37,908 bases of DNA from an uncultured Candidatus Thioglobus sp. (GTDB taxonomy: Bacteria > Pseudomonadota > Gammaproteobacteria > PS1 > Pseudothioglobaceae). The position numbers and the translations under genes are program-made. Below are positions 1,657 to 19,663 of this stretch, piece by piece. The notes beneath the pieces were generated by a model, which made no database searches, had not been told where the DNA came from, and saw nothing but the letters and a program-made list of their open reading frames with translations. Every line of letters begins with the position of its first letter. The first letter of the stretch is position 1. The DNA is taken from NCBI GenBank assembly GCA_905612405.1, contig CAJQRX010000048.1, positions 1-37,908 of the forward strand, written 5' to 3'.

Positions 1657-3135
1657 TTAAAATTTATCTCCAACTGCTCGGCTTAAGCCTTCTGGTTTAG
1701 GTAGTTTCTGATGAGCTTCATAAACTAACCCCATCTGATTCATGACCAAATCATTTGGCATGCTTGCGCCCCGTGTTTTGAGATCCACATGAATTAACAT
1801 ATGCTCAGCAGTAGCTAACAGCCTGCCATCCTCATGATTAAGCCAGTGGAACAGGTGCAGTTTTTTATTTTCGCCATAGATAACTTGGGTTTTAGCTTTT
1901 ATACTCTCTCCAATTTGAACCTCATCTAAGTGGCGAATATGAGTTTCAACCGTAAAGTAAGATCCTATGTTTAATATGTATTCTTCGTCTACGCCGATAA
2001 TAGACATCATCTCTGTAGTTGCTTCTGAAAAGCATTCAAGATAACGTGCTTCTGTCATATGCCCATTATAATCAGCCCACTCTTTTGGTACTTTAGTGAT
2101 ATAGGTGAGTATGGAGCTTGATAAATCTAGCTCTGAAAACTTTGGTTTTTTAATTGACTCTGACAAACTTTTATCAAATTCTTTGAGAGAATTTCCAGCG
2201 CCCCACTGATTTTCTTTTAAAACTTTTAAAAAATCAACCAAGTTATCATCACGCTTTTCCATTAGCTCGTCAATACTAAATTTTCCAGACTGTTGGTCAG
2301 ATTGACTAGATACCTTTTCTATTAATTCATCTGTAAATTCAGGAACATCCATAAGATGTGTCCAAGGCCACTCTAAACAAGGACCAAACTGCGATATGAA
2401 ATGACGCATACCTGCTTCACCACCAGCCAGCCTGTAAGTTTCAAAAAGTCCCATTTGTGCCCATCGAAGACCAAAGCCATAACGAATTGCATCATCAATT
2501 TCTTCAGTTGTTGCTATGTCATCATTTACTAACCAAAGGGCTTCACGCCAAACCGATTCAAGAAGTCTGTCAGCAATAAAAGCAGGAATTTCTTTTTTAA
2601 TATGCAGTGGAAACATGCCAATATTGTTAAAAATGTTACTTGTTTCCTGGATTGTAGCTTTGGATGTTTTAGCGCCACCAACAATTTCAACTAGCGGCAA
2701 AAGGTAGACTGGGTTAAATGGATGGGCAACCAGAAGCCTTTCAGGGTGTTTCATTTCTGCTTGTAAGTCTGAAGGTAGAATGCCAGAAGTTGATGATGCT
2801 ATGACTAGGTCTTTGTCTGCGCTCGACTCGATTTCCTCATATGCTGATTGTTTGATTGAAAGCCTTTCTGGAACAGCTTCAATAATTAACTCACTAGATT
2901 TTGCAACCTCTGCAATTGAGTTAGAAAATAAGAGCTTGCCCCTTTTAGGTAGATTAGAGGTGAGCAACTTTTTATATGCTCTCTCAGCATTATCAATAAC
3001 TTTATTGACATATTTTGGCGCATCTTTGGAGGGGTCATAGACAAAAACATCAATACCATTTAGTAATAATCTAGCTATCCACCCACTTCCAATAACACCT
3101 GCACCAATAACACCTGCCACCTTGATACTTTTCAT
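1657..3135 (-). CDS. L-carnitine dehydrogenase / betainyl-CoA thioesterase fusion
   Basis: A 492-residue two-domain protein. Residues 1 to about 320 form a 3-hydroxyacyl-CoA-dehydrogenase-type enzyme: NAD-binding GAGVIG at 11-16 and the active-site block HPFNPVYLLPLVE with His138 and Glu150. A hot-dog thioesterase follows from about residue 345 (DYNGHM motif). This architecture is known for L-carnitine dehydrogenase fused to betainyl-CoA thioesterase. The first domain oxidises L-carnitine to 3-dehydrocarnitine; the second hydrolyses betainyl-CoA to glycine betaine. The gene starts two bases after the BKACE stop, so the fusion brackets the intermediate cleavage step. Glycine betaine would feed the methyltransferase and dehydrogenase near 22400-26400. 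The carnitine assignment rests on family and neighbour, not on an assay. Confidence 0.85.
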   Translation of the reverse strand: MKSIKVAGVIGAGVIGSGWIARLLLNGIDVFVYDPSKDAPKYVNKVIDNAERAYKKLLTSNLPKRGKLLFSNSIAEVAKSSELIIEAVPERLSIKQSAYEEIESSADKDLVIASSTSGILPSDLQAEMKHPERLLVAHPFNPVYLLPLVEIVGGAKTSKATIQETSNIFNNIGMFPLHIKKEIPAFIADRLLESVWREALWLVNDDIATTEEIDDAIRYGFGLRWAQMGLFETYRLAGGEAGMRHFISQFGPCLEWPWTHLMDVPEFTDELIEKVSSQSDQQSGKFSIDELMEKRDDNLVDFLKVLKENQWGAGNSLKEFDKSLSESIKKPKFSELDLSSSILTYITKVPKEWADYNGHMTEARYLECFSEATTEMMSIIGVDEEYILNIGSYFTVETHIRHLDEVQIGESIKAKTQVIYGENKKLHLFHWLNHEDGRLLATAEHMLIHVDLKTRGASMPNDLVMNQMGLVYEAHQKLPKPEGLSRAVGDKF

Positions 3136-3137
3136 AT

Positions 3138-4049
3138 CTAGCCCCAGCGTTTTACAAGTTTCATATTATCTCGAACTTGATCTGGCCCTATGATGGCGCA
3201 GCCCATGCCCTCTGCTGTCTGCACAGCTTTTTTAACAAGGTCTGCATTGGTAGCAAAAACGCCCCGTTTTAGGTATATATTATCTTCAAGTCCGACACGA
3301 ATATTGCCACCCGCTAAGATAGCCATGGCAACATAAGGCAGCTGATTTCTACCGATTGAGAAGGCAGAAAATGTCCAATCTTTTGGAACGTTTGATGTCA
3401 TTGCAAGGAAGGTGTTTAAGTCATCAGGCGCCCCCCATGGAATGCCCATACATAACTGAATCATAACAGGATCATCAATTAAACCCTGATTCTTGAGCCA
3501 TATGGCAAGTTGTAAATGACCAGTATCAAAGACTTCTATTTCAGGCCTAACCCCAAGCTCTTGAACTTGTTTTGCCATCTCCTTAAGCACTGCTGGAGTA
3601 TTGGTCATGACATAACCACCTTCGCCAAAATTCATTGTTCCGCAATCAATAGTGCAGATCTCAGGAAGTATTTGTCTAACATGGTCAAGTCTCTCAGTTG
3701 CGCCTACCATATCAGTACCTTCATTATTTAATGGCAAAGGTTTTTCAGCAGAGCCAAATACTAAATCTCCACCCATTCCTGCTGTTAGATTGAGCACCAT
3801 ATCAACCTTCGATTCACGAATAATGCTTACAACTTTAGCATAGAGTTTAGGATCGCGCGCGGGAACCCCTGTTTCGGGGTTGCGAACGTGAATATGAACA
3901 ATGGCTGCACCAGCTTGGGCTGCCTCGATACATGAATCAGCTATTTGTTGGGGCGTAATAGGAACTTTATGAGATTTTCCAGTAGTATCGCCTGACCCCG
4001 TAACAGCGCAAGTAATAAAAACTTCTCGGGATGGTTGAAGGTTAGTCAT
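3138..4049 (-). CDS. BKACE-family 3-dehydrocarnitine cleavage enzyme
   Basis: A 303-residue protein of the beta-keto acid cleavage enzyme family (formerly DUF849). It carries the zinc-binding HIH at residues 52-54 (VHIHVRN) and a late GLEDN segment holding the third ligand Glu. BKACE enzymes condense a beta-keto acid with acetyl-CoA to give acetoacetate plus a new acyl-CoA. Beside a carnitine dehydrogenase/thioesterase fusion the expected substrate is 3-dehydrocarnitine and the product betainyl-CoA. It is the first gene of a two-gene minus-strand operon. The ATG is preceded by GGAGAAAT on the coding strand. The divergent region to the right holds the LacI-type operator. Confidence 0.88.
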   Translation of the reverse strand: MTNLQPSREVFITCAVTGSGDTTGKSHKVPITPQQIADSCIEAAQAGAAIVHIHVRNPETGVPARDPKLYAKVVSIIRESKVDMVLNLTAGMGGDLVFGSAEKPLPLNNEGTDMVGATERLDHVRQILPEICTIDCGTMNFGEGGYVMTNTPAVLKEMAKQVQELGVRPEIEVFDTGHLQLAIWLKNQGLIDDPVMIQLCMGIPWGAPDDLNTFLAMTSNVPKDWTFSAFSIGRNQLPYVAMAILAGGNIRVGLEDNIYLKRGVFATNADLVKKAVQTAEGMGCAIIGPDQVRDNMKLVKRWG

Positions 4050-4108: not shown

Positions 4109-4136
4109 AAAGTAGAAATTTTGGATATGATGTCAA
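4109..4136 (-). promoter_or_regulatory. Possible promoter of the carnitine operon
   Basis: On the minus strand a perfect -35 hexamer TTGACA lies at 4136-4131. Sixteen bases downstream a weak -10 candidate (TACTTT, 4114-4109) precedes the BKACE start by about 60 bases. The -35 is convincing; the -10 matches only half the consensus, so the exact promoter is uncertain. The LacI-type operator at 4175-4190 lies about 40 bases upstream of this -35 and could also affect it. Confidence 0.35.
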
Positions 4137-4160: not shown

Positions 4161-4190
4161 TGTGATATAATATTTTGCAATCGTATGCAT
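4161..4190 (+). promoter_or_regulatory. Extended -10 promoter with LacI-type operator, upstream of the ABC ATPase
   Basis: TGTGATATAAT (4161-4171) supplies an extended -10 (TG, one base, TATAAT). Three bases later comes TTGCAATCGTATGCAT (4175-4190), an imperfect palindrome with half-sites TTGCA and TGCA and a central CG, as in operators of LacI/PurR-type repressors. The operator covers the expected +1, so binding would block initiation. The same 30-base arrangement is found at 16329-16358. No good -35 is visible. A short inverted repeat (CGCTAT 4140-4145, ATAGCG 4155-4160) sits where a -35 would be and may be a second protein site. The likely regulator is the LacI-family gene at 8939. Confidence 0.75.
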
Positions 4191-4236: not shown

Positions 4237-5289
4237 ATGGCTAAAATTGAACTAAAAAATATTACAAAGAAATGGGGTGATTTTGTTGGTGTAGATAACT
4301 TTAACCTTACTATTCCTGATGAAGAGTTTTTGGTATTACTTGGGCCATCAGGCTGTGGAAAAACGACCACAATGCGAATGATTGCTGGACTTGAAACTGT
4401 TACTAGTGGAGAGGTGTTGATTAATGGAGAGGTTGTAAACAATCTAGAGCCAAAGGACCGAGACGTTGCAATGGTCTTTCAGTCATATGCACTCTATCCA
4501 AATATGACAGTTTATGAAAATATTCGTTTCCCATTAAAAGTAAGAAATATTGATAAAGAGCTCCATAAAGAAAAAGTTATGAGAGCCTCTGCAATGGTTG
4601 AGCTTGATGATTTCTTACACCGTAAACCATCAGAACTTTCTGGGGGTCAAAGACAAAGAGTAGCTTTGGCAAGAGCAATTGTTAGAGAGCCGACAGTATT
4701 TTTAATGGATGAACCACTTTCAAACCTTGATGCTAAATTACGCGTCTCTACCCGAGCGCAAATTAAAAACCTCCAGCACAAGCTCAGCGTAACAACAATC
4801 TATGTAACTCATGATCAGGTTGAGGCAATGACGCTTGCAGATCGTGTTGTTGTTATGAATAATGGGCTCGTCCAACAGGTTGGAACGCCTCAAGAAATAT
4901 ACAATACGCCTGCTAACAGTTTTGTTGCAAGTTTTATTGGCTCCCCTGCTATGAACCTAATGAAAGGTGTAATAAAAGATGGAGTCTTCTCTGGAGACAA
5001 CGTAAAAATTCAAGGCTTAAATAAAAAACATTCAGGTGATATAACTCTAGGATTTAGGGCGGAAGATGCATCCATTGTTAAAAGTAAGGGGGCGATTAAA
5101 GCAGCAGCATTTTCAATGGAGTTATTGGGAGATATGACAATGGTTTCAGTTAAGGCTGGTGGTGACTTAATTTCCATAAAGTCTGATAAAAATTATTATG
5201 CCAAGATTGGTTCAACAATTATGGCAAATGTGCCAGCAAATTTATGTCTACTTTTCAGTTCTAAAACTGGAAAACTGCTTAAAAATTAA
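4237..5289 (+). CDS. CUT1-type ABC transporter ATPase (MalK/UgpC-like)
   Basis: A 350-residue ATPase with Walker A GPSGCGKTT, Q-loop FQSYALYPNM, signature LSGGQRQRVALARA, Walker B FLMDEP, and H-loop VTHDQVEAMTLADR. A C-terminal region of about 110 residues is typical of the MalK/UgpC (MOI/TOBE) group. It energises import of a sugar- or polyol-like solute. Its presumed binding protein and permeases are 12 kb away (16425-19663), behind the same promoter-operator module. It is the first gene of the long operon to 15132. The ATG at 4237 fits the family N-terminus, but no strong ribosome site is visible. Confidence 0.92.
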   Translation: MAKIELKNITKKWGDFVGVDNFNLTIPDEEFLVLLGPSGCGKTTTMRMIAGLETVTSGEVLINGEVVNNLEPKDRDVAMVFQSYALYPNMTVYENIRFPLKVRNIDKELHKEKVMRASAMVELDDFLHRKPSELSGGQRQRVALARAIVREPTVFLMDEPLSNLDAKLRVSTRAQIKNLQHKLSVTTIYVTHDQVEAMTLADRVVVMNNGLVQQVGTPQEIYNTPANSFVASFIGSPAMNLMKGVIKDGVFSGDNVKIQGLNKKHSGDITLGFRAEDASIVKSKGAIKAAAFSMELLGDMTMVSVKAGGDLISIKSDKNYYAKIGSTIMANVPANLCLLFSSKTGKLLKN

Positions 5290-5309
5290 AAAATTGGAGA
5301 TTTAAAAAA

Positions 5310-5795
5310 ATGAGCTATAACGAGCAATCTACAAAAACACTTGCTGTTGTAAAGGCTATGGAAGATGCCTTAGCTGCTAACTCTAATAATATGGAAAAGC
5401 ATTTTCATAAAGATTTTCGTTGGATGGGCAATCAGGGTTGTGGTACCAAGAAAAGTTTAGAAGAGTTTCGTAATAATTGGCAGCTACCTCTTAGGGCTGC
5501 TTTCTCAGATCGAATTTATAATACCGACAAGTTTTTAGTAGATGGTGAGTGGGCATCTTGCTTTGGTCATATTGATGCAGTTCATAGTGGAGAATTCATG
5601 GGCATTGAGCCTACTAATAAGCGCGTAAAAATTCACTACACAGATTTTTGGGAAGTTAAGGATGGACTCATAATAGACAACTGGGTAACTGTTGACTTTC
5701 CAAGTATTCTTTCGCAACTTGGCGTTGATGTTTTTAATGGTCTAGGCTGGGAGGCTTATGATCGAGGTGTGATGGCTCCCGCAAAGCCAAATTAA
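5310..5795 (+). CDS. Single-domain SnoaL/NTF2-like protein
   Basis: This 161-residue protein has the SnoaL (polyketide-cyclase-like, NTF2 fold) pattern. Its C-terminal half, FMGIEPTNK through DFW to NWVTVDF and LGVDVF, matches the C-terminal domains of the longer paralogues at 7117, 15155 and 21274. The family includes aldol cyclases, isomerases and epoxide hydrolases, so the name does not fix the reaction. It is cytoplasmic, with no signal peptide. A clear GGAG ribosome site precedes the ATG. The gene sits between the transporter ATPase and the HisD-like dehydrogenase in one operon, so it probably acts on an intermediate of the imported compound. Confidence 0.8.
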
Positions 5796-5806
5796 TTGGA
5801 GATATT

Positions 5807-7117
5807 ATGTCGATAACATATTTAAAAAAAGGTAAGACAGATGCTGCTAAGGCCATCGATGATGCTGAGGTTAGTGAGATTGTAAAAAATACTTTAAAGT
5901 CCATAGAGGATAGAGGAGATGCGGCAGTTAGAGAGTTTGCAGAAAAGTTTGATAATTACACTCCAAAATCTTTCAAATTAAGTCAGTCTGAGATTGATAG
6001 TTTAATTCAACAAGTATCACCTCAAGACCTTGAGGATATTAAGTTTGCTCAAGAGCAGGTTCGAAACTTTGCACAAGCGCAGAGAGATTCTATGAAGGAT
6101 ATAGAGGTTGAAACTATGCCTGGCGTTATCTTAGGACATAAAAATATTCCTGTTCAATCAGTTGGATGTTATATCCCAGCGGGAAAGTTCCCAATGGTTG
6201 CTTCAGCGCATATGTCAGTTGTAACTGCTAGTGTTGCAAAGGTTCCAAGAATTATTGCTTGCACGCCTCCATATAAGGGCACTCCAAATCCTGCAGTTAT
6301 TGCAGCAATGCATTTTGGTGGTGCTCATGAAATATATGTCATAGGAGGCATTCAGGCTGTTGGAGCCATGGCTCTTGGTACTGAAACAATTGACCCAGTT
6401 GATATGCTTGTTGGTCCTGGAAACGCATTTGTTGCTGAAGCTAAAAGGCAATTATTTGGTAAGGTTGGAATTGATTTATTTGCCGGTCCAACGGAGACTA
6501 TGGTGATAGCAGATGATACGGTTGATGCTGAATTGTGTGCAACAGATTTGTTAGGCCAGGCTGAGCATGGATATAACTCGCCAGCTGTTTTGGTAACTAA
6601 TAATAAAAATCTAGCAGAAGAAACAATCTCTGAGATAGCTAGAATTTTAACCATTCTTCCAACAGCAGAAACTGCCTCAGTTAGCTGGGAAGAGTATGGT
6701 GAAATAATTCTTTGTGATAGCTATGATGAGATGTTAGATGTTGCTAATGAAATTGCATCTGAACATGTCCAGGTTATGACTGATCGTGATGATTGGTTTT
6801 TAGAAAATATGCATTCTTATGGGGCTCTTTTTTTAGGGCCAAGAACAAACGTTTCTAATGGTGATAAAGTCATTGGAACCAACCATACTTTACCAACAAA
6901 AAAAGCAGGTCGTTATACGGGTGGTCTTTGGGTTGGTAAGTATCTTAAAACTCATAGTTATCAAAAAATTACAACTGATGAAGCAGCTGTAAAGATTGGT
7001 AGATACTGTTCTCGACTATGTATGCTTGAGTCGTTTGTTGGCCATGCAGAGCAAGCCAACATGAGAGTTAGGCGATATGGTGGAGAGGATGTACCTTATG
7101 GGAAGGCAGCGCAGTAG
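5807..7117 (+). CDS. HisD-family dehydrogenase, catabolic (sulfopropanediol dehydrogenase-like) branch
   Basis: A 436-residue member of the histidinol dehydrogenase family, with [20 protein letters not shown], the metal-site QAEH, the catalytic ASEHVQV (Glu-His) and GTNHTLPT. The stretch reads GLWVGKYLK where true HisD has an Asp zinc ligand before the aromatic residue. This pattern is typical of HisD paralogues such as sulfopropanediol 3-dehydrogenase (HpsN). Such enzymes oxidise a primary alcohol through an aldehyde to a carboxylate with two NAD. No other histidine gene is nearby and the operon is transport-linked, so a catabolic role is preferred. The substrate is unknown. The stop overlaps the next GTG start by one base. 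Confidence 0.82.
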
Positions 7118-8172
7118 TGCATAGAATTAATTATCTTAAGGAGCTAATAAAACCTCTAAGATTAAGTATGTACAGTTTCACTGAAGATGAGGTTCGAAGA
7201 AACCTTGACTCTTTATTTCATGAAGAAGCTACTATTCATCTTTCCCATCCTTTTGGAGATATATCAGGCCCAACTAATTTTTATAGCCAGGCGCTTAAGC
7301 CCCTTTTTGAATCAATGCCAGATCTAGAAAGGCGGGATTATATTGTTATCGCTGGAAAAACAGAAAAGGATTTAGAGTGGGTAGGATGTGCTGGATTTTA
7401 TAATGGTACATTCTTGAAGCCTTTTTTAGATATACCGCCAACAGGCCATATAGCGCACATGCGATTTCATGAGTTTTATTGCTTTCAGGGTGACAAGATA
7501 ATAGAAGTTCAGGCTTTATGGGATATTCCAGAACTAATGATGCAATCAGACTCTTGGCCAATGGCGCCATCACTTGGAAGAGAGTGGTGTGTTCCAGGTC
7601 CAGCAACGATGGATGGGATTTCAGATAAGCCTTATGATCCAGAAAAAAGTAACTCTTCAATGGAGCATGTTCTAGGAATGGCTGATGCTATGAAAAAGCA
7701 CCCATCCCAGGGTGATCCTGAGATTATGAAAATGGATTACTATTGGCATCCAAAAATGAATTGGTATGGACCATCTTCTATAGGAAGTGGAAGAGGGATT
7801 GAAGGTTTTAGAAACTGGCATCAAATTCCATTTTTGAATGCTATGCCAGATAGGGGAAAGGATACAACCTATAGTAAGAGAGATGGATGGGGAGACAAAG
7901 TAGGTTACCATTTTTTTGGAGATGGAGATTATGTAGCCGTAACTGGCTGGCCTAATATGAAACAAACTCTTACCCATGATGGTTGGATGGGCATGGCCCC
8001 AACGAACAAAGAAGTTTTTCTTCGCTCTCTTGATTTCTGGAGGATGGAAGAAGGAAAAATAAGAGAGAACTGGGTCATGCTTGATATCCTTGATATTTAT
8101 GATCAAATGGGTATCGATGTACTTGGTAGATTAAGAGAATTTAACAAAGCAAGAAATATGAAAGGATATTGA
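7117..8172 (+). CDS. Double-domain SnoaL-like protein
   Basis: A 351-residue protein built of two SnoaL/NTF2-like halves (about 1-150 and 190-350). The first contains the recurring block IPPTGHIAHMRFHEF; the second ends with WMGMAPTNK, a DFWR segment, ENWVMLD and QMGIDVLGR. These blocks recur in the proteins at 15155 and 21274. The start is a GTG that overlaps the HisD-like stop by one base, with an AAGG site upstream; an ATG at 7168 is the alternative. Double SnoaL proteins have few characterised members. Isomerase, hydratase or cyclase chemistry on a pathway intermediate is only inference. Confidence 0.78.
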   Translation: MHRINYLKELIKPLRLSMYSFTEDEVRRNLDSLFHEEATIHLSHPFGDISGPTNFYSQALKPLFESMPDLERRDYIVIAGKTEKDLEWVGCAGFYNGTFLKPFLDIPPTGHIAHMRFHEFYCFQGDKIIEVQALWDIPELMMQSDSWPMAPSLGREWCVPGPATMDGISDKPYDPEKSNSSMEHVLGMADAMKKHPSQGDPEIMKMDYYWHPKMNWYGPSSIGSGRGIEGFRNWHQIPFLNAMPDRGKDTTYSKRDGWGDKVGYHFFGDGDYVAVTGWPNMKQTLTHDGWMGMAPTNKEVFLRSLDFWRMEEGKIRENWVMLDILDIYDQMGIDVLGRLREFNKARNMKGY

Positions 8173-8174
8173 GT

Positions 8175-8939
8175 GTGAAACTTCCAACTACACCATCGTT
8201 TAGACTAGATAACAAAACTGCTTTAATTACAGGAGCTTCATCTGGTATTGGTCTAGGTTGTGCAGTAGCCTTAGCTGAAGCAGGTGCGCATGTAGTTGTT
8301 TCAGCTCGAAGTAGTGATAAACTTAATTCAGTTGTTGATACAATTAAAGCTAAAGGATTAAGCGCTGAAGCAATGGTGATGGATGTTGCTGATACAAATT
8401 TAGTTCAAGAAATTATTGATAGTAAAGGCCCATTTGACATTTTAGTTAATAGTGCTGGTTTGGGAAGGCACTCACCCTCTAAAGATACTTCAATAGAAGA
8501 TTTTGATGCGGTAATGAATGTTAATCTTCGTGGTGCTTACTTTGTTACTCAAGCAGTGGCAAATGGATTAATAAATGCAAAAAAAACTGGCTCATTAATC
8601 AATATTTCTTCTCAGATGGGACATGTCGGTGGAATTGATAGAGCAGTTTATTCAGCATCAAAGCATGCAGTTGAAGGATTTACAAAGGCTATGGCCATTG
8701 AGTGGGGTCCTCATCAAATTAGGGTTAATACAATCTGTCCAACATTTATAAGAACTCCTCTTACGCAATCTACTTTTGATAATCCTGATCGCAAAGAGTG
8801 GATTGAAAGCAAAATAAAAATTGGCCGAATTGGGGAAGTGGAAGATATTATGGGTGCGGTTGTATTTTTGGCCTCTGATGCTTCATCAATGGTTACTGGA
8901 TCTGCCCTTATGGTTGATGGAGGCTGGACTGCTGACTAA
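8175..8939 (+). CDS. Short-chain dehydrogenase/reductase
   Basis: A classical SDR of 255 residues with TGASSGIG cofactor motif, NSAGLG, active-site Ser in INISSQMG, and the catalytic YSASK. The C-terminal MVDGGWTAD is typical of FabG-like and polyol or sugar-alcohol dehydrogenases. It would oxidise or reduce a secondary alcohol or ketone with NAD(P). A TTG start at 8169 would overlap the preceding stop, but GTG at 8175 is placed about eight bases after AAGGA and is preferred. The stop forms TAATG with the next gene. The exact substrate in this operon is unknown. Confidence 0.88.
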   Translation: MKLPTTPSFRLDNKTALITGASSGIGLGCAVALAEAGAHVVVSARSSDKLNSVVDTIKAKGLSAEAMVMDVADTNLVQEIIDSKGPFDILVNSAGLGRHSPSKDTSIEDFDAVMNVNLRGAYFVTQAVANGLINAKKTGSLINISSQMGHVGGIDRAVYSASKHAVEGFTKAMAIEWGPHQIRVNTICPTFIRTPLTQSTFDNPDRKEWIESKIKIGRIGEVEDIMGAVVFLASDASSMVTGSALMVDGGWTAD

Positions 8940-9961
8940 TGTTAAATAAAAAAGTCACGTCATTAGAAGTAGCAAAATTAGCTGGCGTTAGTCAGTCTGC
9001 AGTATCTCGCGTATTTACACCTGGTGCCTCAGCCTCTAAAAAGACTAATGAGTTAGTTCGAAAAGCTGCTTTGGATCTTGGTTATAGACCTAATGTATTA
9101 GCTCGATCACTAATTACTGGAAAGACAAAAATTATAGGTCTTGTTGTTGCCTACTTAGACAATTACTTTTATCCTGAGGCATTAGAACTTTTATCGGGGG
9201 CGCTTCAAAAAAATGGTTATCACGTATTGATCTTTATGGCGACTAACACCTCAGGAAATATTGACAACGTAGTGGAAGAAATTCTTGACTATCAGGTCGA
9301 TGGAATAATTGCAGCATCTGTTGGTATGTCTACCAATCTAGCATCAAGATGTTCTGATGCCGGTGTTCCTGTTGTTTTATTTAATCGTACTCAAGATGAT
9401 AAAAGGCTCTCAGCAGTTACCTCTGATAATGAACTTGGGGGGCAAAAGATTGCTCAATTTCTTTGTGCCAACGGCCATAAACGCATCGGCTATATAGCTG
9501 GATGGGAAGGCGCCTCTACTCAAAGGGATAGAGAAAAAGGTTTTACTGATGAGCTTAAAAAAAATGGACAAAATATTTTTGCTCGAGAAGTTGGTAACTT
9601 TAACCTAGATGAAGCTCGTCAAGCTGCGCGAAAAATGTTTACAGCAAAAGAAATACCCGATGCAGTTTTTGTTGTTAATGACCACATGGCATTTGCAGTA
9701 ATGGACGTTATGCGTTATGAGCTAGGATTAAAGATACCCGAAGACGTCTCAGTTGTTGGTTATGATGATGTCCCAGTTGCTAAATGGCTGGCTTACAATC
9801 TAACAACTGTCAGGCAACGCGCAAATCGTATGGTGGACGAAACAGTTTCGATATTAATTGACTCTATTAAGAAAAACTCAACTAAGGCGAAACGTGTAAA
9901 AATTGATGGCCCTCTTATAATAAGGGGTTCAGCAAAAATTTTAAATAATTATGGAGTTTAA
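8939..9961 (+). CDS. LacI-family transcriptional regulator
   Basis: A 340-residue regulator. Its N-terminal helix-turn-helix reads SLEVAKLAGVSQSAVSRVF, with a hinge-helix region around NVLARSLITGKT, followed by a periplasmic-binding-protein-like effector domain (IIGLVVAYLDNYFY to VVGYDDVPVAKW). Members normally bind a sugar-like effector and repress by sitting on a palindrome with a central CG. Two such palindromes, with matching promoters, lie upstream of the ATPase (4175) and the binding protein (16343), so this gene very probably controls both arms of the locus, including itself. It starts inside the TAATG junction with the SDR. Confidence 0.93.
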   Translation: MLNKKVTSLEVAKLAGVSQSAVSRVFTPGASASKKTNELVRKAALDLGYRPNVLARSLITGKTKIIGLVVAYLDNYFYPEALELLSGALQKNGYHVLIFMATNTSGNIDNVVEEILDYQVDGIIAASVGMSTNLASRCSDAGVPVVLFNRTQDDKRLSAVTSDNELGGQKIAQFLCANGHKRIGYIAGWEGASTQRDREKGFTDELKKNGQNIFAREVGNFNLDEARQAARKMFTAKEIPDAVFVVNDHMAFAVMDVMRYELGLKIPEDVSVVGYDDVPVAKWLAYNLTTVRQRANRMVDETVSILIDSIKKNSTKAKRVKIDGPLIIRGSAKILNNYGV

Positions 9962-9964
9962 TTT

Positions 9965-10933
9965 ATGAAAGGTTTTGATTCAAACTATGCTAATTTTCCA
10001 GATTGGATAAATGGCATTACTCATGAAATTTGGGAGGATCGAGGAATTGATAAGCTTCTCTATCTTTATTCGGATGATATTATATTAAGAGCACCCTACT
10101 CCCTGATAATTGGTAATAAGCCAGTTATAGAAGCCACCAAAGCAACTTTGTCTGAATTCCCAGACCGTCAACTCTTAGGTGAGGATGTAATCTGGTCTGG
10201 TACTCCTGAAACAGGAATGTTGTCATCCCATAGAATTATATCTACGGCATCACATATGGGAGATGGACAGTTTGGTAAAGCAACAGGTACAAAAATTGTC
10301 TTTAGAACAATAGCGGATTGCCATGCTATTAATAATCAAGTTAATGATGAGTGGTTAATCCGTGATGTAGGAGCTATGGCTAGACAGCTTGGTATACATC
10401 CAAAAGACTTTGCTAGAAAACAGATAGAGTCAGAGGGTGGTATGGATAAATGTCAGCACCCTTTCACAGATTCTGTGGACCTTCCAGGACCATATATAGG
10501 AAAGGGCAACACTAACGAGTGGGGCGAAAAGTATGTTGATATTTTAAATCGCATTATGAACTCTGATCAATCTGTTATTAACTCCGAGTATGATCGTGGT
10601 TGTGATCTGGAGTATCCTGGAGGCGTATCAGGCCACTCTTACTCGGATGCAGATGATTTTTGGATGGGACTTCGCTCCTCAATGCCAAGTGCAACATTTA
10701 CTATTGAGCATCAAATTGGAAGAGAAGATCAATATATGTCTCCTCGCGCAGCTGTTCGATGGTCTCTAAAAGGTAAGCACGATGGTTGGGGAGTTTTTGG
10801 TGAGCCTACAGGCGCAGATTTATATGTGATGGGTGTCTCTCATGCTGAATTTGGCCCATGGGGCTTAAGAAGAGAATACACATTGTTTGATGAGACTTCG
10901 ATGTGGAAGCAAATAATTCTTAAGACTGGTTAA
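9965..10933 (+). CDS. Divergent double-domain SnoaL/NTF2-like protein
   Basis: A 322-residue protein with two NTF2-like halves (about 15-145 and 180-320). Both halves carry the pattern of a long helix, a strand with acidic and aromatic residues, and a late SHRII or RAAVRW strand. It lacks the MGIxPTNK and ENW signature of the other four, so it is the most distant member of the set. A GGAG ribosome site lies eight bases before the ATG. It sits between the regulator and the bicupin gene. It may act on a different intermediate, or be a steroid-isomerase-like or structural partner; nothing in the sequence decides this. Confidence 0.65.
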   Translation: MKGFDSNYANFPDWINGITHEIWEDRGIDKLLYLYSDDIILRAPYSLIIGNKPVIEATKATLSEFPDRQLLGEDVIWSGTPETGMLSSHRIISTASHMGDGQFGKATGTKIVFRTIADCHAINNQVNDEWLIRDVGAMARQLGIHPKDFARKQIESEGGMDKCQHPFTDSVDLPGPYIGKGNTNEWGEKYVDILNRIMNSDQSVINSEYDRGCDLEYPGGVSGHSYSDADDFWMGLRSSMPSATFTIEHQIGREDQYMSPRAAVRWSLKGKHDGWGVFGEPTGADLYVMGVSHAEFGPWGLRREYTLFDETSMWKQIILKTG

Positions 10934-10935
10934 TA

Positions 10936-11901
10936 ATGACTCTAGAAGAAATGGAAAAGTGTATTGTTCGATATGCTGATTTAAAGCCTTGTAAAACTGC
11001 CTTTATTGATGCTCATACGCCTGGATCAAACCAGAAAGATAACTTTACAATTATTGGCTCTGGGGTATCAGAGAGCCCTGATCAACATGTTCATATCAAT
11101 CAATCACCAGGCTTTAATATTGGCGCTGCTGGGCAGCCTCCAGGCTGCATAAATTCATTACACTCGCACACAACTGCTGAAGTATTTTATGTATTCAAGG
11201 GTCGATGGCGTTTTTTCTGGGGACGCTACGGTGATTCTGGAGAGATAGTAGCAGAAGAAGGTGATATGGTTAATATTCCTACAGGCATGTTTCGCGCATT
11301 TGAAAATATTGGGAACGATTATGGAATGTTGATGGCAATACTTGGAGGTGATGATGCAGGTGGAGGCGTTACATGGGCTCCTGAGGTTATTAATGATGCC
11401 AAAGATTACGGCCTTATTTTGGGCGATAATGGATTACTATACGACACTAAAAAAGGGGAGATTCTGCCAAAAAATATTAACCCGATGCCCTTATTGACTG
11501 AAACTAATCTTATGAGTTTTTCTGAAATTACAACTGAAGATTTTAATAATAATTTTTTTGTCAGCGCATCAGAGTTAAATCAAAAATCACAGAATTTACC
11601 GTTAAAGGTTATTGGGGTAGATGGGATTTTAAAGGATCGGCCTGGTTTTGAAATTGACTATATTACAGCTGACACTTTTGTTGGTGAGCAATACTCTTCT
11701 GGTCGACATGAGGTTAATATGATAATGAGCGGTGAATGGTCTCTAGAGTGGGATGAAAATGTTACAACTCTTTCTCCTGGAGACACATGTTTGATAAGCC
11801 CTGACATGCTGCACAAAATTGTTCCTAAAGATTTGGCAAGTGCAAGTCTTTTCAGGGTTACAAAGACTGATGATCAAGCTGGTCCAACATGGAAAAGGTA
11901 G
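10936..11901 (+). CDS. Bicupin protein
   Basis: A 321-residue protein with two cupin barrels. The first (about 70-145) has the metal-binding pattern HSHTTAEVFYVFKG followed by GDMVNIPTGMFRAFEN. The second (about 240-310) has HEVNMIMSGEWSLEW and PGDTCLISPDMLHKI, with fewer of the canonical His ligands. Bicupins include dioxygenases (gentisate, homogentisate type), isomerases and decarboxylases. The first barrel probably binds a metal and does the chemistry. In this operon it could open a ring or isomerise a keto sugar, but I cannot choose. It starts two bases after the preceding stop. Confidence 0.82.
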   Translation: MTLEEMEKCIVRYADLKPCKTAFIDAHTPGSNQKDNFTIIGSGVSESPDQHVHINQSPGFNIGAAGQPPGCINSLHSHTTAEVFYVFKGRWRFFWGRYGDSGEIVAEEGDMVNIPTGMFRAFENIGNDYGMLMAILGGDDAGGGVTWAPEVINDAKDYGLILGDNGLLYDTKKGEILPKNINPMPLLTETNLMSFSEITTEDFNNNFFVSASELNQKSQNLPLKVIGVDGILKDRPGFEIDYITADTFVGEQYSSGRHEVNMIMSGEWSLEWDENVTTLSPGDTCLISPDMLHKIVPKDLASASLFRVTKTDDQAGPTWKR

Positions 11902-11918
11902 TTTTTAAGGATATGATA

Positions 11919-12581
11919 ATGAATCACAAAGCAATTCTTTTTGGATCAATTGGTACGCTTGTTGAAACTTCTGAACTTCAACGACGCTCATTCAATCAAG
12001 CATTTGCTGAGGCTGGACTTGATTGGAATTGGAATTCTGAAGAGTACCAGCAGTTACTTGCAAAATCTGGTGGCTGTGATAGGATCGAAAACTATGCGAT
12101 TCAACGCGGTGTTGATGTTGATGTGAAGGAGCTTCATAGGCATAAAACTAAAATCTTTGATACTTTAATGGACAAAGAAACTATCTTACTTCGCCCTGGC
12201 GTAGATAGCTTGATAAGTTATGCACTGGATAAAAGTTTACTGCTAGCATTCGTAACAAATACATCAAAGGTAAATATTGATGCCGTCTTTTTTGCATTAG
12301 GGGATCAGATAAGGAGGGATGATTTCAGTTTCATTGGAAACGATACGATAGTCTCCAATCCGAAGCCAAGTCCAGATATATACCTAAAGGCCCTATCTGA
12401 GATGCATCTAGATGCACAAGATTGTATTGCCATAGAGGATACAGAAATCAGCATGCAGTCTGCTTTAGCAGCATCAATTCGGTGTATTGGTTTCCCAGGG
12501 GCGAATTCACAAGATAATGATTTTAGTGGTGCTGTTCTTTTAACGAATCATTTGTCTGTTGATGACTTAGTAGGCCTATAG
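11919..12581 (+). CDS. HAD-superfamily protein lacking the catalytic aspartates
   Basis: A HAD-like fold of 220 residues resembling beta-phosphoglucomutase/CbbY-type phosphatases. Motif II (VTNTSK), motif III (NPKPSPDIY) and motif IV (AIEDTEIS) are present. Motif I, normally DxDGT, reads FGSIGTL: the nucleophile Asp at residue 9 is Gly and the acid/base Asp at residue 11 is Ile. Classical phosphohydrolase or phosphomutase catalysis is therefore unlikely. I have the impression that a group of marine HAD-like proteins shares FGSIGTL, which would make this a conserved variant rather than decay; that is from memory. ATG 11919 is chosen because AAGG lies eight bases upstream; ATGs at 11889 and 11913 are less well placed. 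Confidence 0.82.
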   Translation: MNHKAILFGSIGTLVETSELQRRSFNQAFAEAGLDWNWNSEEYQQLLAKSGGCDRIENYAIQRGVDVDVKELHRHKTKIFDTLMDKETILLRPGVDSLISYALDKSLLLAFVTNTSKVNIDAVFFALGDQIRRDDFSFIGNDTIVSNPKPSPDIYLKALSEMHLDAQDCIAIEDTEISMQSALAASIRCIGFPGANSQDNDFSGAVLLTNHLSVDDLVGL

Positions 12582-12617
12582 ATAGTGCCCTTTTAAGATA
12601 TTATTTAGGAGTAAAAA

Positions 12618-13751
12618 ATGAGTAGAATATTAACTAGCCACGTAGGTTCTCTTCCAAGAATGCAAGAAGTTGTAGACTATATTTTTGCCCGAGAAAATAA
12701 TCAGAAATATAATGAGAAGAGTTTTGATGAGTGCATGGAAGAGAATGTTTTAAAGACTGTTGAGAGGCAAAAAAGTGCTGGTATAGATATTGTTAGTGAT
12801 GGAGAAACATCAAAAATATCATACGCAACTTATGTGAAAGATAGATACACAGGTTTTTCAGGTGACAGTGCTCGAAATGCGCCAGAAGACCTAAAGATGT
12901 TTCCAGGTTTTCTTAAAAGACTCTCTGATGATGGTGGAACCCCCCAATACTCAAGACCAATGTGTACAAGTGAAGTTAAGTCAAAAGGCCAAGGAGAGCT
13001 TCAAAAGGATATATCTAATTTGAAATCTGCAATGGCTAAAAATGGTGTTGAACGAGGCTTTATGAATGCAGCATCTCCTGGTGTTATTTCACTATTTTTA
13101 CAAAATGACTTCTACCCTACTAGGGATGCTTACCTAGCTGCTTTGGCGGATGCTATGAGAGATGAATATGAAACTATTGTGGAATCAGGTTTAGACTTGC
13201 AGTTAGATTGTCCTGATCTAGCACTTTCTAGGCATATGTTATTTAGTGACTTGTCTGATTCAGAGTTTATAAAGATTATTGAGTCACATGTGGAAGCACT
13301 AAATCATGCGCTTAAGAATGTCCCAGAAGAGAAGGTCAGAATTCATATCTGTTGGGGAAATTATGAGGGTCCTCACTGTTGTGATATAGATATGAATAAA
13401 GTTTTTGGAACTCTCATGAAGGCAAAAGCTCGATATACTCTATTTGAAACTTCAAACCCACGCCATGCTCATGAATGGACAGTTTTTAGAGATCGTAAAA
13501 GCGAAATACCAGATACGAAAATTCTTGTACCAGGAGTTGTAGATACAACCACTAACTTCATTGAGCATCCTCAGCTAGTTGCAGAGCGTATCGAAAAATT
13601 TGTTAATATAGTAGGGAGTGAAAGAGTAATTGCAGGATCAGACTGTGGCTTTGGAACGTTCGCAGGATTTGGAGCGGTCGATCCAGAAATTGCTTTTGCT
13701 AAATTAAAATCTTTATCTGAGGGCGCTATGCTTGCTAGTAATAGACTATGA
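12618..13751 (+). CDS. MetE/epoxyalkane:CoM transferase-like zinc protein
   Basis: A 377-residue protein related to the C-terminal half of cobalamin-independent methionine synthase and to the similarly sized epoxyalkane:coenzyme M transferase. Candidate zinc ligands are His243 and Cys245 (HICWGN), Glu277 (LFETSN) and Cys343 (GSDCGFG), the order seen in MetE. Such proteins activate a thiol on zinc for attack on a methyl or alkyl donor. Only the catalytic half is present and the neighbours are catabolic, so methionine synthesis is unlikely. It may demethylate or de-alkylate the substrate or conjugate a thiol. AGGAG precedes the ATG. The stop overlaps the next start as ATGA. Confidence 0.75.
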   Translation: MSRILTSHVGSLPRMQEVVDYIFARENNQKYNEKSFDECMEENVLKTVERQKSAGIDIVSDGETSKISYATYVKDRYTGFSGDSARNAPEDLKMFPGFLKRLSDDGGTPQYSRPMCTSEVKSKGQGELQKDISNLKSAMAKNGVERGFMNAASPGVISLFLQNDFYPTRDAYLAALADAMRDEYETIVESGLDLQLDCPDLALSRHMLFSDLSDSEFIKIIESHVEALNHALKNVPEEKVRIHICWGNYEGPHCCDIDMNKVFGTLMKAKARYTLFETSNPRHAHEWTVFRDRKSEIPDTKILVPGVVDTTTNFIEHPQLVAERIEKFVNIVGSERVIAGSDCGFGTFAGFGAVDPEIAFAKLKSLSEGAMLASNRL

Positions 13752-14440
13752 CACCCCTTGTAATGATTCCTGGAATGATGTGTGATGAGCGCATTTTTGC
13801 GCCACAAATAGAGGGGCTTCTCTCTGAGGTGTCAGTCCATATCGCAGATATTTCTAAACATGACAATATTAGTGACTTGGCGGCTGATGTTTTAAGTCAT
13901 GCGCCACCAAAATTCTGCCTTGCTGGTCATTCAATGGGCGGAATTGTTGCTATGGAAATTTGTTCACAGGCGCCAGAAAGAGTTGAAAAATTGATATTAA
14001 TTGATACCAATCCTAAATCTGAATTAGAGGAAGTGAAAGCCAAGCGTGAGCCTCAAATTAGTGATGCTTTATCAGGAAAATTAATAAATGTAATTCGTGA
14101 TGAGATGAAACCTAAATATTTAGCGGATAGTGATAATCCAGATATTATTTTAAATATCTGCATGCAGATGGCTCTTTCTTTAGGCCCTAAAGTTTTTGTT
14201 AGCCAATCAAGAGCCCTCCAAGGAAGAATTGATCAAGAGAAAACACTTAATTCACTTGATATACCAGTGTTAATAATGTGTGGCCTGGAAGATAAATTAT
14301 GCCCTCTAGAGAAGCATGAAATGATGCATAATATAATTAGCAATTCAACTTTAGAGGTAATTGAAAATGCCGGTCATTTGCCAACATTAGAACAACCAGA
14401 AAAAACTACGGAGATATTAAAAACATGGCTTATGAACTAG
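13748..14440 (+). CDS. Alpha/beta hydrolase
   Basis: A 230-residue alpha/beta-hydrolase fold. It has the oxyanion region MIPGMMCDERI, nucleophile elbow GHSMGG (Ser about residue 64), an acid in the GLEDKLCP segment and catalytic His in NAGHLPTLEQP. The full Ser-Asp-His triad is present, so it should be an active esterase, lactonase or carbon-carbon hydrolase in the cytoplasm. Its start overlaps the MetE-like stop (ATGA) and its end overlaps the RraA-like start by 16 bases. That tight coupling argues for consecutive steps in one pathway. The natural substrate cannot be read from the sequence. Confidence 0.87.
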   Translation: MTPLVMIPGMMCDERIFAPQIEGLLSEVSVHIADISKHDNISDLAADVLSHAPPKFCLAGHSMGGIVAMEICSQAPERVEKLILIDTNPKSELEEVKAKREPQISDALSGKLINVIRDEMKPKYLADSDNPDIILNICMQMALSLGPKVFVSQSRALQGRIDQEKTLNSLDIPVLIMCGLEDKLCPLEKHEMMHNIISNSTLEVIENAGHLPTLEQPEKTTEILKTWLMN

Positions 14441-15132
14441 ATCAAGAACTACTTGCCCTTCTCCAATCAGTAGACACTCCTACTGTATGTAACGCAATTG
14501 AAGTAGCACAAGGCAAGCGAGGCTTTTCAGAATTTACTCGTGGAACGATGATTTGCTCAGCACCAAAGGGTGGAGCAATGGTTGGTTTTGCTAAAACTGC
14601 AAAGATTGCTGCACTGAGCCCGCCAAAAGAAGATCAAGAGGTAATTAAAGAGCGGAGGATGAATTATTACCAATATATGTCAGAAGTTACTGGCCCTAGT
14701 GTTGCAGTCATAGAGGATGTTGATTATCCAAATTGTATTGGAGCTTATTGGGGCGAAGTCAATACGAAGGTCCACAAAGGGTTTGGCCTTTCTGGGGCGC
14801 TGACTAACGGAGTTATGAGAGATCTTGGTGATCTTGCGGAGGATTTTCCAGTCGTTGCAGGCTCTATCGGTCCAAGTCATGGGTTTGTTCATGTACGAGA
14901 AATTGATACAAAAATTAGTGTTCTTGGTATGAGTGTTTCGCCAAATGATTTAATTCATGCCGACCTTCATGGCGCAGTTGTAATCCCTAAAGAGGTTATT
15001 AACGGTTTAAAGGACGCTATCCATAAGTTATTTGCTTCAGAGCAGTTGATACTTGGCCCTGCTGAAAAGAAAGGTTTCAATTTTGACAGCTTTAAAAGTG
15101 CATGGGAAGATTTTGAAAAATCAAGAACATAA
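14425..15132 (+). CDS. RraA-like aldolase/decarboxylase-family protein
   Basis: A 235-residue protein of the RraA/HMG-aldolase fold. It shows GALTNGVMRD, the substrate/metal-binding block with Arg-Asp, and the C-terminal DLIHADLHGAVVIP typical of the family. Family members include 4-hydroxy-4-methyl-2-oxoglutarate aldolase, oxaloacetate decarboxylase and uncharacterised catabolic lyases. The conserved Arg-Asp pair is intact, so a lyase or decarboxylase acting on a keto acid late in the pathway is reasonable, with pyruvate or a similar product. It is the last gene of the operon that begins at 4237. Its end faces the minus-strand gene at 15155, with 22 bases between and no clear terminator hairpin. 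Confidence 0.82.
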   Translation: MAYELDQELLALLQSVDTPTVCNAIEVAQGKRGFSEFTRGTMICSAPKGGAMVGFAKTAKIAALSPPKEDQEVIKERRMNYYQYMSEVTGPSVAVIEDVDYPNCIGAYWGEVNTKVHKGFGLSGALTNGVMRDLGDLAEDFPVVAGSIGPSHGFVHVREIDTKISVLGMSVSPNDLIHADLHGAVVIPKEVINGLKDAIHKLFASEQLILGPAEKKGFNFDSFKSAWEDFEKSRT

Positions 15133-15154: not shown

Positions 15155-16183
15155 TTATTGAGAAATTTCAGATAGTATGTCTCGACCTAACTGATGCACT
15201 AAGTGAAGTGTATCGACCATACACCAATTTTCAATAATCTTTCCATCTTTGCACCTCCACCAGTCACAATCTCTCATATAAATACGTTTATTTGTGGGCT
15301 CAATGCCCATAAAGGTCTTGACATGAACGCCTGTTACTTGTGGCCAACCACTCAGAAACGCATAGTCGCCATCGCCTGCTTTGCACTGAGAGCCAACCCC
15401 TAAAATTCCTTGAGGAACTCCGTCACCCCAGCCTTCAAATGTATTCTCAAATGGTACTTGGAACGCTGCAAAGGCTTCAGTCGTTACATATGAGCCAAAA
15501 CCACCGGGCCCATACCATATCATTCGCTCATCCCAGTAAGGAATCCAAGCTGCATCTGGCGAGGTGAGCTCCATCAGCATACCTTCAACTAAATCAGCTG
15601 TAGCTCTAGAATTGACTGGTTCATTTTTAGTAATACTAATACCGTCTTGTGTTGATGGGCCAGGAGTAACTCCTTCATATCCCCCCATGAGTTCAAGCGG
15701 CCAGATACCAAGGTCAATCAATAGCTCTGCAACACCTAAAAAGATTTGTGATTCAACAATCTCCCCATCAATCATTCTATGAAACTCACCAAAGCGAATA
15801 TGTTCAAGTTTACCGCTTGGCGGAATACCAAGCCATGTGTGTTCAAAATGACCCAAAAAATAGCCTGTAGTAGCAACCCATTCGCCGCCTAGATATTCTC
15901 CCCCAATAATAATGTTATCACGTCTTTGAAAGCCTCTAAACGATTGTAGGATTGGGCTAATAATGTCCCTAAAATAACCAATTGCACCCTTTGTTTCATT
16001 AACAGGATGGAAGGCATCAATTTTTGCATCAGCACTAAAAATTGATTTTATTGCCTGTTCAATATCGCCATTTTCAGATGAATTAAATGACTGAGCATAC
16101 GAAGCAAAAATGCATTTATTTGTATGGGATATTTTTGTAGCAATCCCCATTGCAGGTCTGGGTCCTCTGGCAGGCATCTTCAT
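15155..16183 (-). CDS. Double-domain SnoaL-like protein, minus strand
   Basis: A 342-residue protein with two SnoaL-like domains (about 20-160 and 195-342). It shares with the 7117 protein an internal IPPSGKLEHIRFGEF block and the C-terminal [19 protein letters not shown] and LGRDILSE series. It is the only gene of the locus on the minus strand. It reads away from the binding-protein gene and toward the RraA-like gene. Its upstream region is shared with the promoter-operator module at 16329-16358, so the same regulator could control it. The N-terminus begins with a basic MKMPARGPRPAMG stretch that is not a signal peptide. Reaction unknown. Confidence 0.78.
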   Translation of the reverse strand: MKMPARGPRPAMGIATKISHTNKCIFASYAQSFNSSENGDIEQAIKSIFSADAKIDAFHPVNETKGAIGYFRDIISPILQSFRGFQRRDNIIIGGEYLGGEWVATTGYFLGHFEHTWLGIPPSGKLEHIRFGEFHRMIDGEIVESQIFLGVAELLIDLGIWPLELMGGYEGVTPGPSTQDGISITKNEPVNSRATADLVEGMLMELTSPDAAWIPYWDERMIWYGPGGFGSYVTTEAFAAFQVPFENTFEGWGDGVPQGILGVGSQCKAGDGDYAFLSGWPQVTGVHVKTFMGIEPTNKRIYMRDCDWWRCKDGKIIENWCMVDTLHLVHQLGRDILSEISQ

Positions 16184-16328: not shown

Positions 16329-16358
16329 TGTGATATAATCGTTTGCAATCGTATGCAA
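16329..16358 (+). promoter_or_regulatory. Extended -10 promoter with LacI-type operator, upstream of the solute-binding protein
   Basis: TGTGATATAAT at 16329-16339, a three-base spacer, then TTGCAATCGTATGCAA at 16343-16358. The 16-base palindrome matches its own reverse complement at 12 of 16 positions and has a central CG. The module differs from the one at 4161-4190 only in the spacer and the last operator base. Spacing is identical, so the operator overlaps the likely transcription start. No recognisable -35 is present, which fits an extended -10 promoter. The rest of the 241-base gap before the ATG at 16425 shows only AT-rich sequence. Confidence 0.78.
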
Positions 16359-17654: not shown

Positions 17655-17684
17655 GCTTTTGTAAGTTGTTTGTCTCCTAAGATT

Positions 17685-17719
17685 AGGGCGTGTGTTACAC
17701 ATGCCCTTTTCTTTTTTTT
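17685..17719 (+). terminator. Intrinsic terminator or attenuator after the binding-protein gene
   Basis: GGGCGTGTG (17686-17694), loop TTA, CACATGCCC (17698-17706): a nine-pair stem with one G-U pair, followed by TTTTC and a run of eight T. It lies between the binding-protein gene and the first permease gene, both on the plus strand. Partial read-through would explain a high ratio of binding protein to permease. A TATAAT directly after it (17720-17725) could also start an independent transcript. Confidence 0.82.
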
Positions 17720-17754
17720 GTATAATTGAGTTTCTTTAATCTTATTATTTCCAT

Positions 17755-18780: not shown

Positions 18781-18781
18781 T

Positions 18782-19663
18782 ATGACTTCAAATCAAATAA
18801 AAAAACCATTAGGACTTCAGATATTAATATATGGCTTTGTATTATTCTGGTTAATTTTGGCAGCCTTTCCATTTTTATGGACTATGTGGGGTTCATTCAA
18901 AGTAGAGCTGGATTTTTTCTCAAAAGGAGACTGGACTAATGTATTTTCTGGGGTAAGAACACAAGTAGTATATGGAGAGTCTTTTACAGGCGCAGGTTAT
19001 GAAGGCGCATGGATCCAAGAAGAGTTTTGGCGCGCTTTTCTAAATACAGCGATAGTTTGTGTTTCTACAGTAGTCATATCATTAACACTTGCAACTCTAG
19101 GTGGTTATGCGCTTTCAAGGTCTGGGTTCCGTTATTCATTTTGGCTGCTAATAATTGCACTTGTTTTTCGTGCGCTGCCTCCAATCACTCTTGTTTCTGG
19201 CTATTTACAACCCTTCTATGATTGGAATGTTTGGGGAACATTGCCGACTACTATTATTGTTTTAGTGGCAATTAACCAGCCATTTACATTGTGGATGCTG
19301 CACTCATTTTTTCAAACAATTCCAAAAGAGCTTGATGAGAGTGCAAAGGTTGATGGCTGTACTCAGTTCCAAGCATTTCGACATGTAATTATTCCAGTGA
19401 TGTGGCCGGGAGTTATTACTGCTGGACTCTTCTCATTTCTTTTGGCATATAATGATTTTGCTGTTACAGCGATACTGCTATCTCAGGAAAATCAAACTAT
19501 GGTCCCTAAAATTGCCAGCTTTATGGGCACTACTCAAACAGAAGGTAATATTATGTTTGCAGTAGCAGCAGTTGTATCCGCAATAATTCCATTGTTCATT
19601 CTGGTTATGTTTTTTCAAAGGCAGCTTGTTAGTGGATTAACAGCTGGCGCAGTCAAGGGTTAA
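18782..19663 (+). CDS. ABC transporter permease, MalG/UgpE-type
   Basis: A permease of 293 residues with six predicted membrane segments. Its EAA loop reads ELDESAKVDGCTQFQAFRHVIIPVMWPG. Between the first two segments there is a periplasmic stretch of about 55 residues. The start is the ATG at 18782, one base after the stop of the preceding permease; a GTG at 18758 would extend it back into that gene and is not needed. Together with the 17755 permease it forms the channel of the CUT1-type importer. Confidence 0.9.
   Translation: MTSNQIKKPLGLQILIYGFVLFWLILAAFPFLWTMWGSFKVELDFFSKGDWTNVFSGVRTQVVYGESFTGAGYEGAWIQEEFWRAFLNTAIVCVSTVVISLTLATLGGYALSRSGFRYSFWLLIIALVFRALPPITLVSGYLQPFYDWNVWGTLPTTIIVLVAINQPFTLWMLHSFFQTIPKELDESAKVDGCTQFQAFRHVIIPVMWPGVITAGLFSFLLAYNDFAVTAILLSQENQTMVPKIASFMGTTQTEGNIMFAVAAVVSAIIPLFILVMFFQRQLVSGLTAGAVKG

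Follow-up and report, generated by a model that had tools for sequence, protein, structure and literature searches.

The window, by which we mean the whole stretch of 37,908 nucleotides analysed here, is one entire contig of a 1.09-Mb assembly (58 contigs, 67.8% complete). Its plus strand carries two blocks of genes, each preceded by a copy of the same promoter-operator module. The first block consists of twelve same-strand ORFs, which overlap or are separated by gaps of at most 36 nt and would be co-transcribed; the lacI gene that the earlier note had located at position 8939, inside the regulated operon, does lie within it. The second block encodes the membrane and binding components of an importer. 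The principal features are as follows.

4161–4171, plus strand: extended −10 element TGTGATATAAT, predicted promoter of the ATPase operon
4176–4189, plus strand: main operator O1 of operon 1, TGCAATCGTATGCA (sequence match), overlapping the predicted +1
4237–15132, plus strand: predicted operon 1, encoding a UgpC-like ATPase, SnoaL, HisD-like dehydrogenase, SnoaL, SDR, LacI, SnoaL, cupin, HAD, MetE-like, alpha/beta hydrolase and RraA-like proteins
5807–7117, plus strand: HisD-like dehydrogenase of its own subfamily, with GKFPM replacing the GRYAH of DHPS-type dehydrogenases (alignment)
8939–9961, plus strand: lacI-type regulator gene, 340 aa, recognition helix SQSAVSRVF
16329–16339, plus strand: extended −10 element TGTGATATAAT (sequence match), predicted promoter of the binding-protein operon
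16344–16357, plus strand: main operator O1 of operon 2, TGCAATCGTATGCA (sequence match)
16425–22287, plus strand: predicted operon 2, encoding a solute-binding protein, two permeases, a GMC oxidoreductase and SnoaL (start codon ATG at 16425, the mechanical ORF beginning at 16395)
17685–17707, plus strand: GC-rich hairpin with T-run in the gap between the binding-protein and permease genes, possible partial terminator (consensus match)
22299–22322, plus strand: ten-pair hairpin with T-run beyond the last SnoaL gene, where operon 2 probably terminates

The region contains 15 terminator-like sites against a shuffle mean of 13.3, which is no excess; because such sites are no commoner than in shuffles, the call at 22299–22322 is to be read as a consensus match only. 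The hairpin at 17685–17707 might lower expression of the permeases relative to that of the binding protein.

The first copy of the module, at 4161–4190, reads TGTGATATAAT-ATT-TTGCAATCGTATGCA-T (4161–4189 without the last base), and the second, at 16329–16358, reads TGTGATATAAT-CGT-TTGCAATCGTATGCA-A (16329–16357 without the last base), which is the common layout that the earlier note had described. Its 16-base palindrome needs correction: the operator proper is the 14-mer TGCAATCGTATGCA, of the form TGCA-NN-CG-NN-TGCA, an imperfect palindrome with a central CG in which five of the seven base pairs are symmetric, and the outer T...T at the first site is asymmetric. The spacer between TGTGATATAAT and TTGCAATCGTATGCA, said to differ, does so at two bases, but the third, a T, is common to both modules. 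The 26 letters that the copies have in common would be expected to recur by chance in the window with a frequency of about 1e-10, and only three exact 15-mers recur in it as direct repeats, two of them being parts of the module. When up to three mismatches were allowed, one extra match was found in the window, at 4477 within the ATPase gene (shuffles gave a mean of 1.7). The TG ahead of TATAAT makes the −10 box an extended one; the consensus scan listed no −35/−10 pair ending at either module −10 box. The operator centre should lie about 4 nt past the start predicted from the spacing, so that the proposed overlap of the operator with the predicted +1 holds on this reckoning.

In the 1.09-Mb assembly, TGCAATCGTATGCA occurs exactly twice, solely at the two module promoters. 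Two one-mismatch matches elsewhere in the genome were rejected as extra targets, one being in an ORF and the other in 23S rRNA. Orthologues of the LacI are encoded by 21 of the 29 genomes of the same genus, the window's own included, the others being 74–98% identical, and one further genome among the 83 of the family encodes a 37% identical homologue. Across these 83 genomes the exact 14-mer was found at 42 places in 24 genomes. All but one of these (41) belong to this locus, where the 14-mer precedes the ATPase gene or that of the binding protein, or follows the RraA gene at a contig end; the reversed operator pattern had no match in the 83 genomes. The lone off-locus match (in G080) lies inside an unrelated ORF and was discarded as a target. 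Among the LacI-positive genomes, G006 is without the exact 14-mer and has TGCAAGCGTATGCA at its ATPase promoter. In G020 and G022 (65% and 70% complete) the operator is present and LacI was not found; because both hold pieces of the same locus, LacI is probably just unassembled there. The loose pattern TGYNWWCGWWNRCA gave 176 forward matches in 29 genomes versus 145 for the control, and is therefore unfit for listing further targets.

We scored 30 loci, which yielded 40 promoters with an operator. The extended −10 element TRTG-N-TATA[AC]T stands 3–6 nt upstream of the operator in 39 of them, the two of the window included. The exception is the ATPase promoter of locus L162 (congener G011), where O1 is damaged and a second, upstream operator is intact; the upstream site alone was scored. 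Operators and pieces of the cluster also occur in a genome of another genus (G048), which was left out of the covariation analysis described below because its sole LacI hit is only 37% identical.

A scan of a genome collection returned 507 stretches encoding a LacI relative, of which the best 80 were kept; 66 of these come from other groups, mostly roseobacters but also SAR116, Planktomarina and Oceanospirillaceae. The LacI proteins of marine Alphaproteobacteria with the same operator are 64–70% identical to that of the window. An ATPase gene start with upstream sequence was present in 55 of the outside loci (L087, where the gene starts at the locus edge, was left out). The palindrome, whose presence beside LacI orthologues the earlier note had taken as the check on its regulon, was conserved in nearly all cases: to the 41 family-locus matches are added 52 of the 55 outside loci (from the best 80 of 507), with TGCANNCGNNTGCA no more than 400 nt before the ATPase gene. 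Four scrambled control patterns had three hits altogether in the 66 loci (1.27 Mb). The operator thus stands before the operon that holds the regulator and is conserved with the regulator in related genomes, as in a local LacI regulon. The three misses are L123, which has TGCACAGGTGTGCA, and L113 and L127, in which the binding-protein genes are divergent. The latter two, from Oceanospirillaceae, keep the regulator and the genes, with only degenerate ATACGTAT cores before the ATPase, and they show no copied operator. Among forty further alphaproteobacterial loci, L243 and L245 had no strict operator ahead of the ATPase.

The ATPase gene has the binding-protein gene behind it, on its own strand, in 51 of the 55 outside loci; the binding-protein gene is divergent in three and not in view in one. 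The full order, mapped in 24 of the 66, is mostly ATPase, binding protein, permeases, SnoaL, HisD-like, SnoaL, SDR, LacI, SnoaL, cupin and so on, with one operator region ahead of it all. Pseudothioglobus-type genomes have the cluster in two parts, with the genes for the binding protein and permeases behind a second promoter that has a module copy of its own. Read most simply, the operator was copied along when the cluster was split. Operators also accompany rearranged parts of the cluster elsewhere: the MetE-RraA pair of L119, detached and on the other strand, has an operator of its own at 18056, which is 56 nt upstream of the start of MetE; the first aligned lacI codon of L088 has an operator starting 91 nt upstream of it; and in L122 one stands ahead of the binding protein.

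In several genomes the transporter has been swapped for a more distant version and the operator kept. The binding protein and first permease are 31–44% identical to those of the window in L028, L042, L155, L156, L158 and L159 (second permease, 56–57%) and 52–59% identical in L037. Overall, the operator is retained where the binding protein is 31–52% and the permease 31–59% identical to the window's.

Many of these promoters have two operators at a fixed spacing. With a slightly relaxed pattern, two sites were found in 42 of the 55 outside loci, 54 bp apart in 23 and 55 bp apart in 19. In the window's genus and G048, 26 of the 40 promoters have an intact second operator, O2, which lies 54 bp upstream of O1 in 25 cases and 53 bp upstream in one. 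At the two promoters of the window this arrangement has decayed, with the following remnant at the first.

4122–4135, plus strand: decayed auxiliary operator O2, TGGATATGATGTCA, matching TGCATAGGATTGCA at 10 of its 14 letters and placed exactly 54 bp upstream of O1 (the motif matrix ranks it 57th among 37,895 positions in the window, about 0.0015 per position)

At the binding-protein promoter of the window, nothing recognisable was found 52–56 bp upstream of O1. The sequences indicate that the window clade has lost O2 by decay and kept O1 at both promoters. In this clade a minus-strand TTGACA or TTGAAA overlaps the O2 remnant; in the window it is TTGACA, at 4131–4136 in the direction of the BKACE gene described below, and the relatives have TTGAAA or TTGCAA at that place. 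In several alphaproteobacterial promoters the operator pair encloses, by eye, a TTGCC-type −35 element and a −10-like stretch, and the Pseudothioglobus-type promoters have the extended −10 element instead; the enclosure of the promoter by the pair is therefore kept despite the differing promoter type. In double operators of the GalR and LacI types, two operators likewise flank the promoter, and the classic loops are longer than about five helical turns. The spacing found here, about five helical turns, is shorter. Two operator-like sites in Sinorhizobium medicae (L131), at 5280 and 5302, are 22 bp apart, unlike the 54–55 bp pairs.

The regulator encoded at 8939–9961 has an N-terminal LacI HTH domain (Pfam PF00356, 40.5 bits, cut-off 27) and a periplasmic-binding-like effector domain (Peripla_BP_3, PF13377, 105.5 bits, cut-off 26.5), which places it in the LacI family. 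At 340 aa, it seems to be without the LacI-type tetramerisation tail. Its operator has the central CG and even palindrome typical of the family, and the ...VSR of the helix in the window and aligned orthologues puts Arg at AA-20 with G at NT-6. The sequence of the recognition helix, SQSAVSRVF, hardly varies, and some orthologues have SRSAVSRVF, with Arg in place of Gln19.

To evaluate this difference, we used 106 loci, namely the 66 outside loci (from the best 80 of 507) and 40 hand-chosen ones, the latter picked from matches in 166 of 390 sampled genomes of the order; 14 loci without an ATPase start or upstream DNA were dropped. The site TGCANN[CG]GNNTGCA was present in 63 of the 67 Gln loci and in all 25 Arg loci. 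Half-sites of the Gln loci (n = 214) were 141 TGCAT, 70 TGCAA and 3 TGCAC, and those of the Arg loci (n = 56) were 49 TGCAC, 7 TGCAA and no TGCAT. Among the LacI columns with more than two sequences, residue 19 ranked first for the operator class, agreeing with it in 87 of 88 loci; the exception, L104, combines a TGCAC half-site with Gln. This covariation of residue 19 with an operator base points to the LacI of the window as the protein that would bind the operator. Because a tree with residue 19 masked (58 rows, 21 with Arg) requires two separate Gln19Arg changes, forced by its starred branches, the covariation counts as two independent switches only, not 25.

On these grounds, we consider it very probable that both modules serve as promoters for a single local regulon of the LacI family, in which the LacI, acting on TGCAATCGTATGCA, blocks both operons until an effector appears. 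The regulon that the earlier note had predicted, from the ATPase to the RraA-like gene and from the binding protein to the last SnoaL gene, is supported by the conserved operator and by the residue-base covariation. When the effector is absent, a LacI dimer would sit on TGCAATCGTATGCA over the start site, just behind the extended −10 element, and would block transcription of both operons, its own gene included. Release of the LacI would come from the effector, which is probably either the compound taken up or a product formed early in its breakdown, and the ABC importer (the ATPase from operon 1, the binding protein and permeases from operon 2) and the catabolic enzymes would then be made together. 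In many relatives, a second operator 54–55 bp upstream forms a promoter-enclosing pair with the first, the second site having decayed in the window's clade.

The earlier note had also drawn two divergent minus-strand units into the regulon, and with them a link to carnitine breakdown.

1657–4049, minus strand: BKACE and 3HCDH-thioesterase genes, a pair of carnitine type judging by their domains, which probably does not belong to the regulon
15155–16183, minus strand: divergent SnoaL gene with its own promoter-like site at 16274–16245

The promoter-like site of the SnoaL gene is about 70 nt from the operator, and no overlap was seen. As to the BKACE pair, the operator region might silence both directions and so tie carnitine use to the LacI, an extension of the regulon that we judge unlikely. 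The distances would allow it: in the window no gene intervenes between the BKACE start and the operators, the O2 remnant being 72 nt away and O1 126 nt, and in L035 an intact O2 lies about 75–80 nt before the BKACE start. The distribution of the genes speaks against it. BKACE is present in 23 of the 29 congeners and in 11 of the 11 good-quality ones, among them G015 (99% complete) and G028 (94% complete), which keep the unit and in which this LacI was not found, and BKACE was not found within the flanks of the 24 mapped outside loci. Furthermore, eight congeners (G006, G009, G015, G017, G023, G028, G029 and G030) have an AraC/DJ-1-type regulator gene (Pfam), which adjoins BKACE in every one; in five LacI-positive congeners it lies between BKACE and the LacI operators (for instance, L045:2237–3208). 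The operator nearer to BKACE, O2, is the one that has decayed in the window clade, and the minus-strand TTGACA overlaps its remnant. The carnitine link is thus left unsupported. At E ≤ 1e-60, no close relative of the AraC/DJ-1 regulator turned up in the window's genome, nor in G007 or G008, each a single contig; its apparent absence from the window's genome leaves room for the LacI to have captured BKACE at a later stage.

That the LacI represses rather than activates is what we infer from the operator position alone. As an activator or dual regulator, it would recruit polymerase from the upstream O2 and modulate it from O1. The flanking of the promoter by paired sites at a fixed 54–55 bp spacing in 42 of the 55 outside loci would fit such a role, as would the Arg-type loci (L208–L236), 22 of 25 of which have a single operator, upstream of a −35-like stretch where inspected. 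We nevertheless regard such a role as unlikely, since O1 lies over the predicted start in Pseudothioglobus-type promoters, the usual place of a blocking repressor, and since the window clade lost O2 and kept O1 at both promoters. The Arg-type loci do mean that blocking at +1 cannot be general, and the mode of action may differ in them. A chance repeat, or a recombinational duplication of one promoter with no selection on the operator, would explain why both the −10 element and the operator are common to the two copies, but has next to no probability, because no longer exact repeat joins the copies, their spacer differs, and diverged congeners retain the identical 14-mer at both places, with a close form of it in other classes.

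With the two operons taken as one repressed regulon, the importer and the enzymes should serve one and the same compound. The HisD-like dehydrogenase has as its closest PDB match the DHPS 3-dehydrogenase HpsN (373 bits), with HisD entries of the PDB at 255 bits or less. HpsN is set apart by a GRYxH motif whose last residue, His126, binds the sulfonate (PMC11382572). Of 102 sequences with an identity of 60% or more, the window's among them, 101 have GKFPM at the aligned place and one has GKYPI, and DHPS was rejected as the default substrate, the window enzyme having Met in place of a His126-type residue. The identity of a biosynthetic HisD was likewise rejected: HpsN is the better PDB match, and in both G007 and G008 a different gene, 32% identical, is the HisD candidate (the incomplete assembly G000 yielded none). 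Weak similarity (E = 2e-7) links the binding protein to SmoF and to sugar-binding proteins. The cluster resembles the DHPS clusters with HpsN of marine bacteria (as outlined in PMC11382572 and PMC11131964) in combining a HisD-fold NAD dehydrogenase, an importer and regulator genes; unlike the HpsN of those clusters, the window enzyme has Met for the sulfonate-binding His126, and it is about 45% identical to an HpsN-like paralogue of its own genome (contig C8), which has GRYAH.

Local LacI-family regulons have been catalogued by Ravcheev et al. (2014; PMC4052901), and the present system shares with those outlined there an even palindrome with a central CG, a site close to the start codon, a regulator gene inside the controlled operon, predicted autoregulation, and an ABC importer with catabolic genes. 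It differs in the 54–55 bp between paired sites, compared with the intersite peaks of 13, 22 and 32 bp given there, and in a target pathway that is not a recognised sugar pathway. In the specificity code of Camas et al. (2010; PMC2978694), as set out in the main text, AA-15 and AA-16 correspond to NT-5 and NT-4, and AA-15 more weakly to NT-2. In agreement with it, the window LacI has Arg at AA-20 with G at NT-6, and AA-15 and AA-16 of the recognition helix carry the specificity. Unlike in that code, the change of AA-15 (Gln19) to Arg covaries here with NT-3, a term not found in the main text of that paper, and NT-5/NT-4 stays CA; the helix, AVSR, also falls outside its TVSR set.

We recognised no paper on this regulator, its operator or the SnoaL/HisD-like cluster in the literature searched, and an earlier RegPrecise prediction for a roseobacter orthologue is possible. 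The comparisons strongly support a predicted new local LacI regulon, which would belong to a well-known kind and shows a fairly clear switch of specificity in nature and an unusual operator pair, spaced 54–55 bp. A wider reading, the case for which we find evenly balanced, is that an undescribed regulator-operator system of Pseudothioglobus-type Gammaproteobacteria and many Rhodobacterales runs an undescribed catabolic pathway round a third subfamily of HisD-fold dehydrogenases; LacI dimers would bind the promoter-enclosing pair, and one residue (AA-15, Gln to Arg, reading NT-3) would have switched their DNA specificity twice, extending the published LacI code. The regulon sets the likely bounds of a single transcriptional programme in bacteria of the surface ocean for which genomes of uncultivated cells are the main source of knowledge. 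Ruegeria strains and other roseobacters have the same cassette with the operator, so the compound could be sought through what turns on the operator; the Gln and Arg lineages lend themselves directly to testing changes of DNA specificity in the LacI family.

A third operator-like site, TGCATACGAATGCA, occurs 3′ of the last SnoaL gene in two congeners, at L153:11200–11213 (G022) and L045:18211–18224 (G029). The gene that follows it encodes a B12-binding protein (Pfam) in G022 and, by eye, the same protein in G029.
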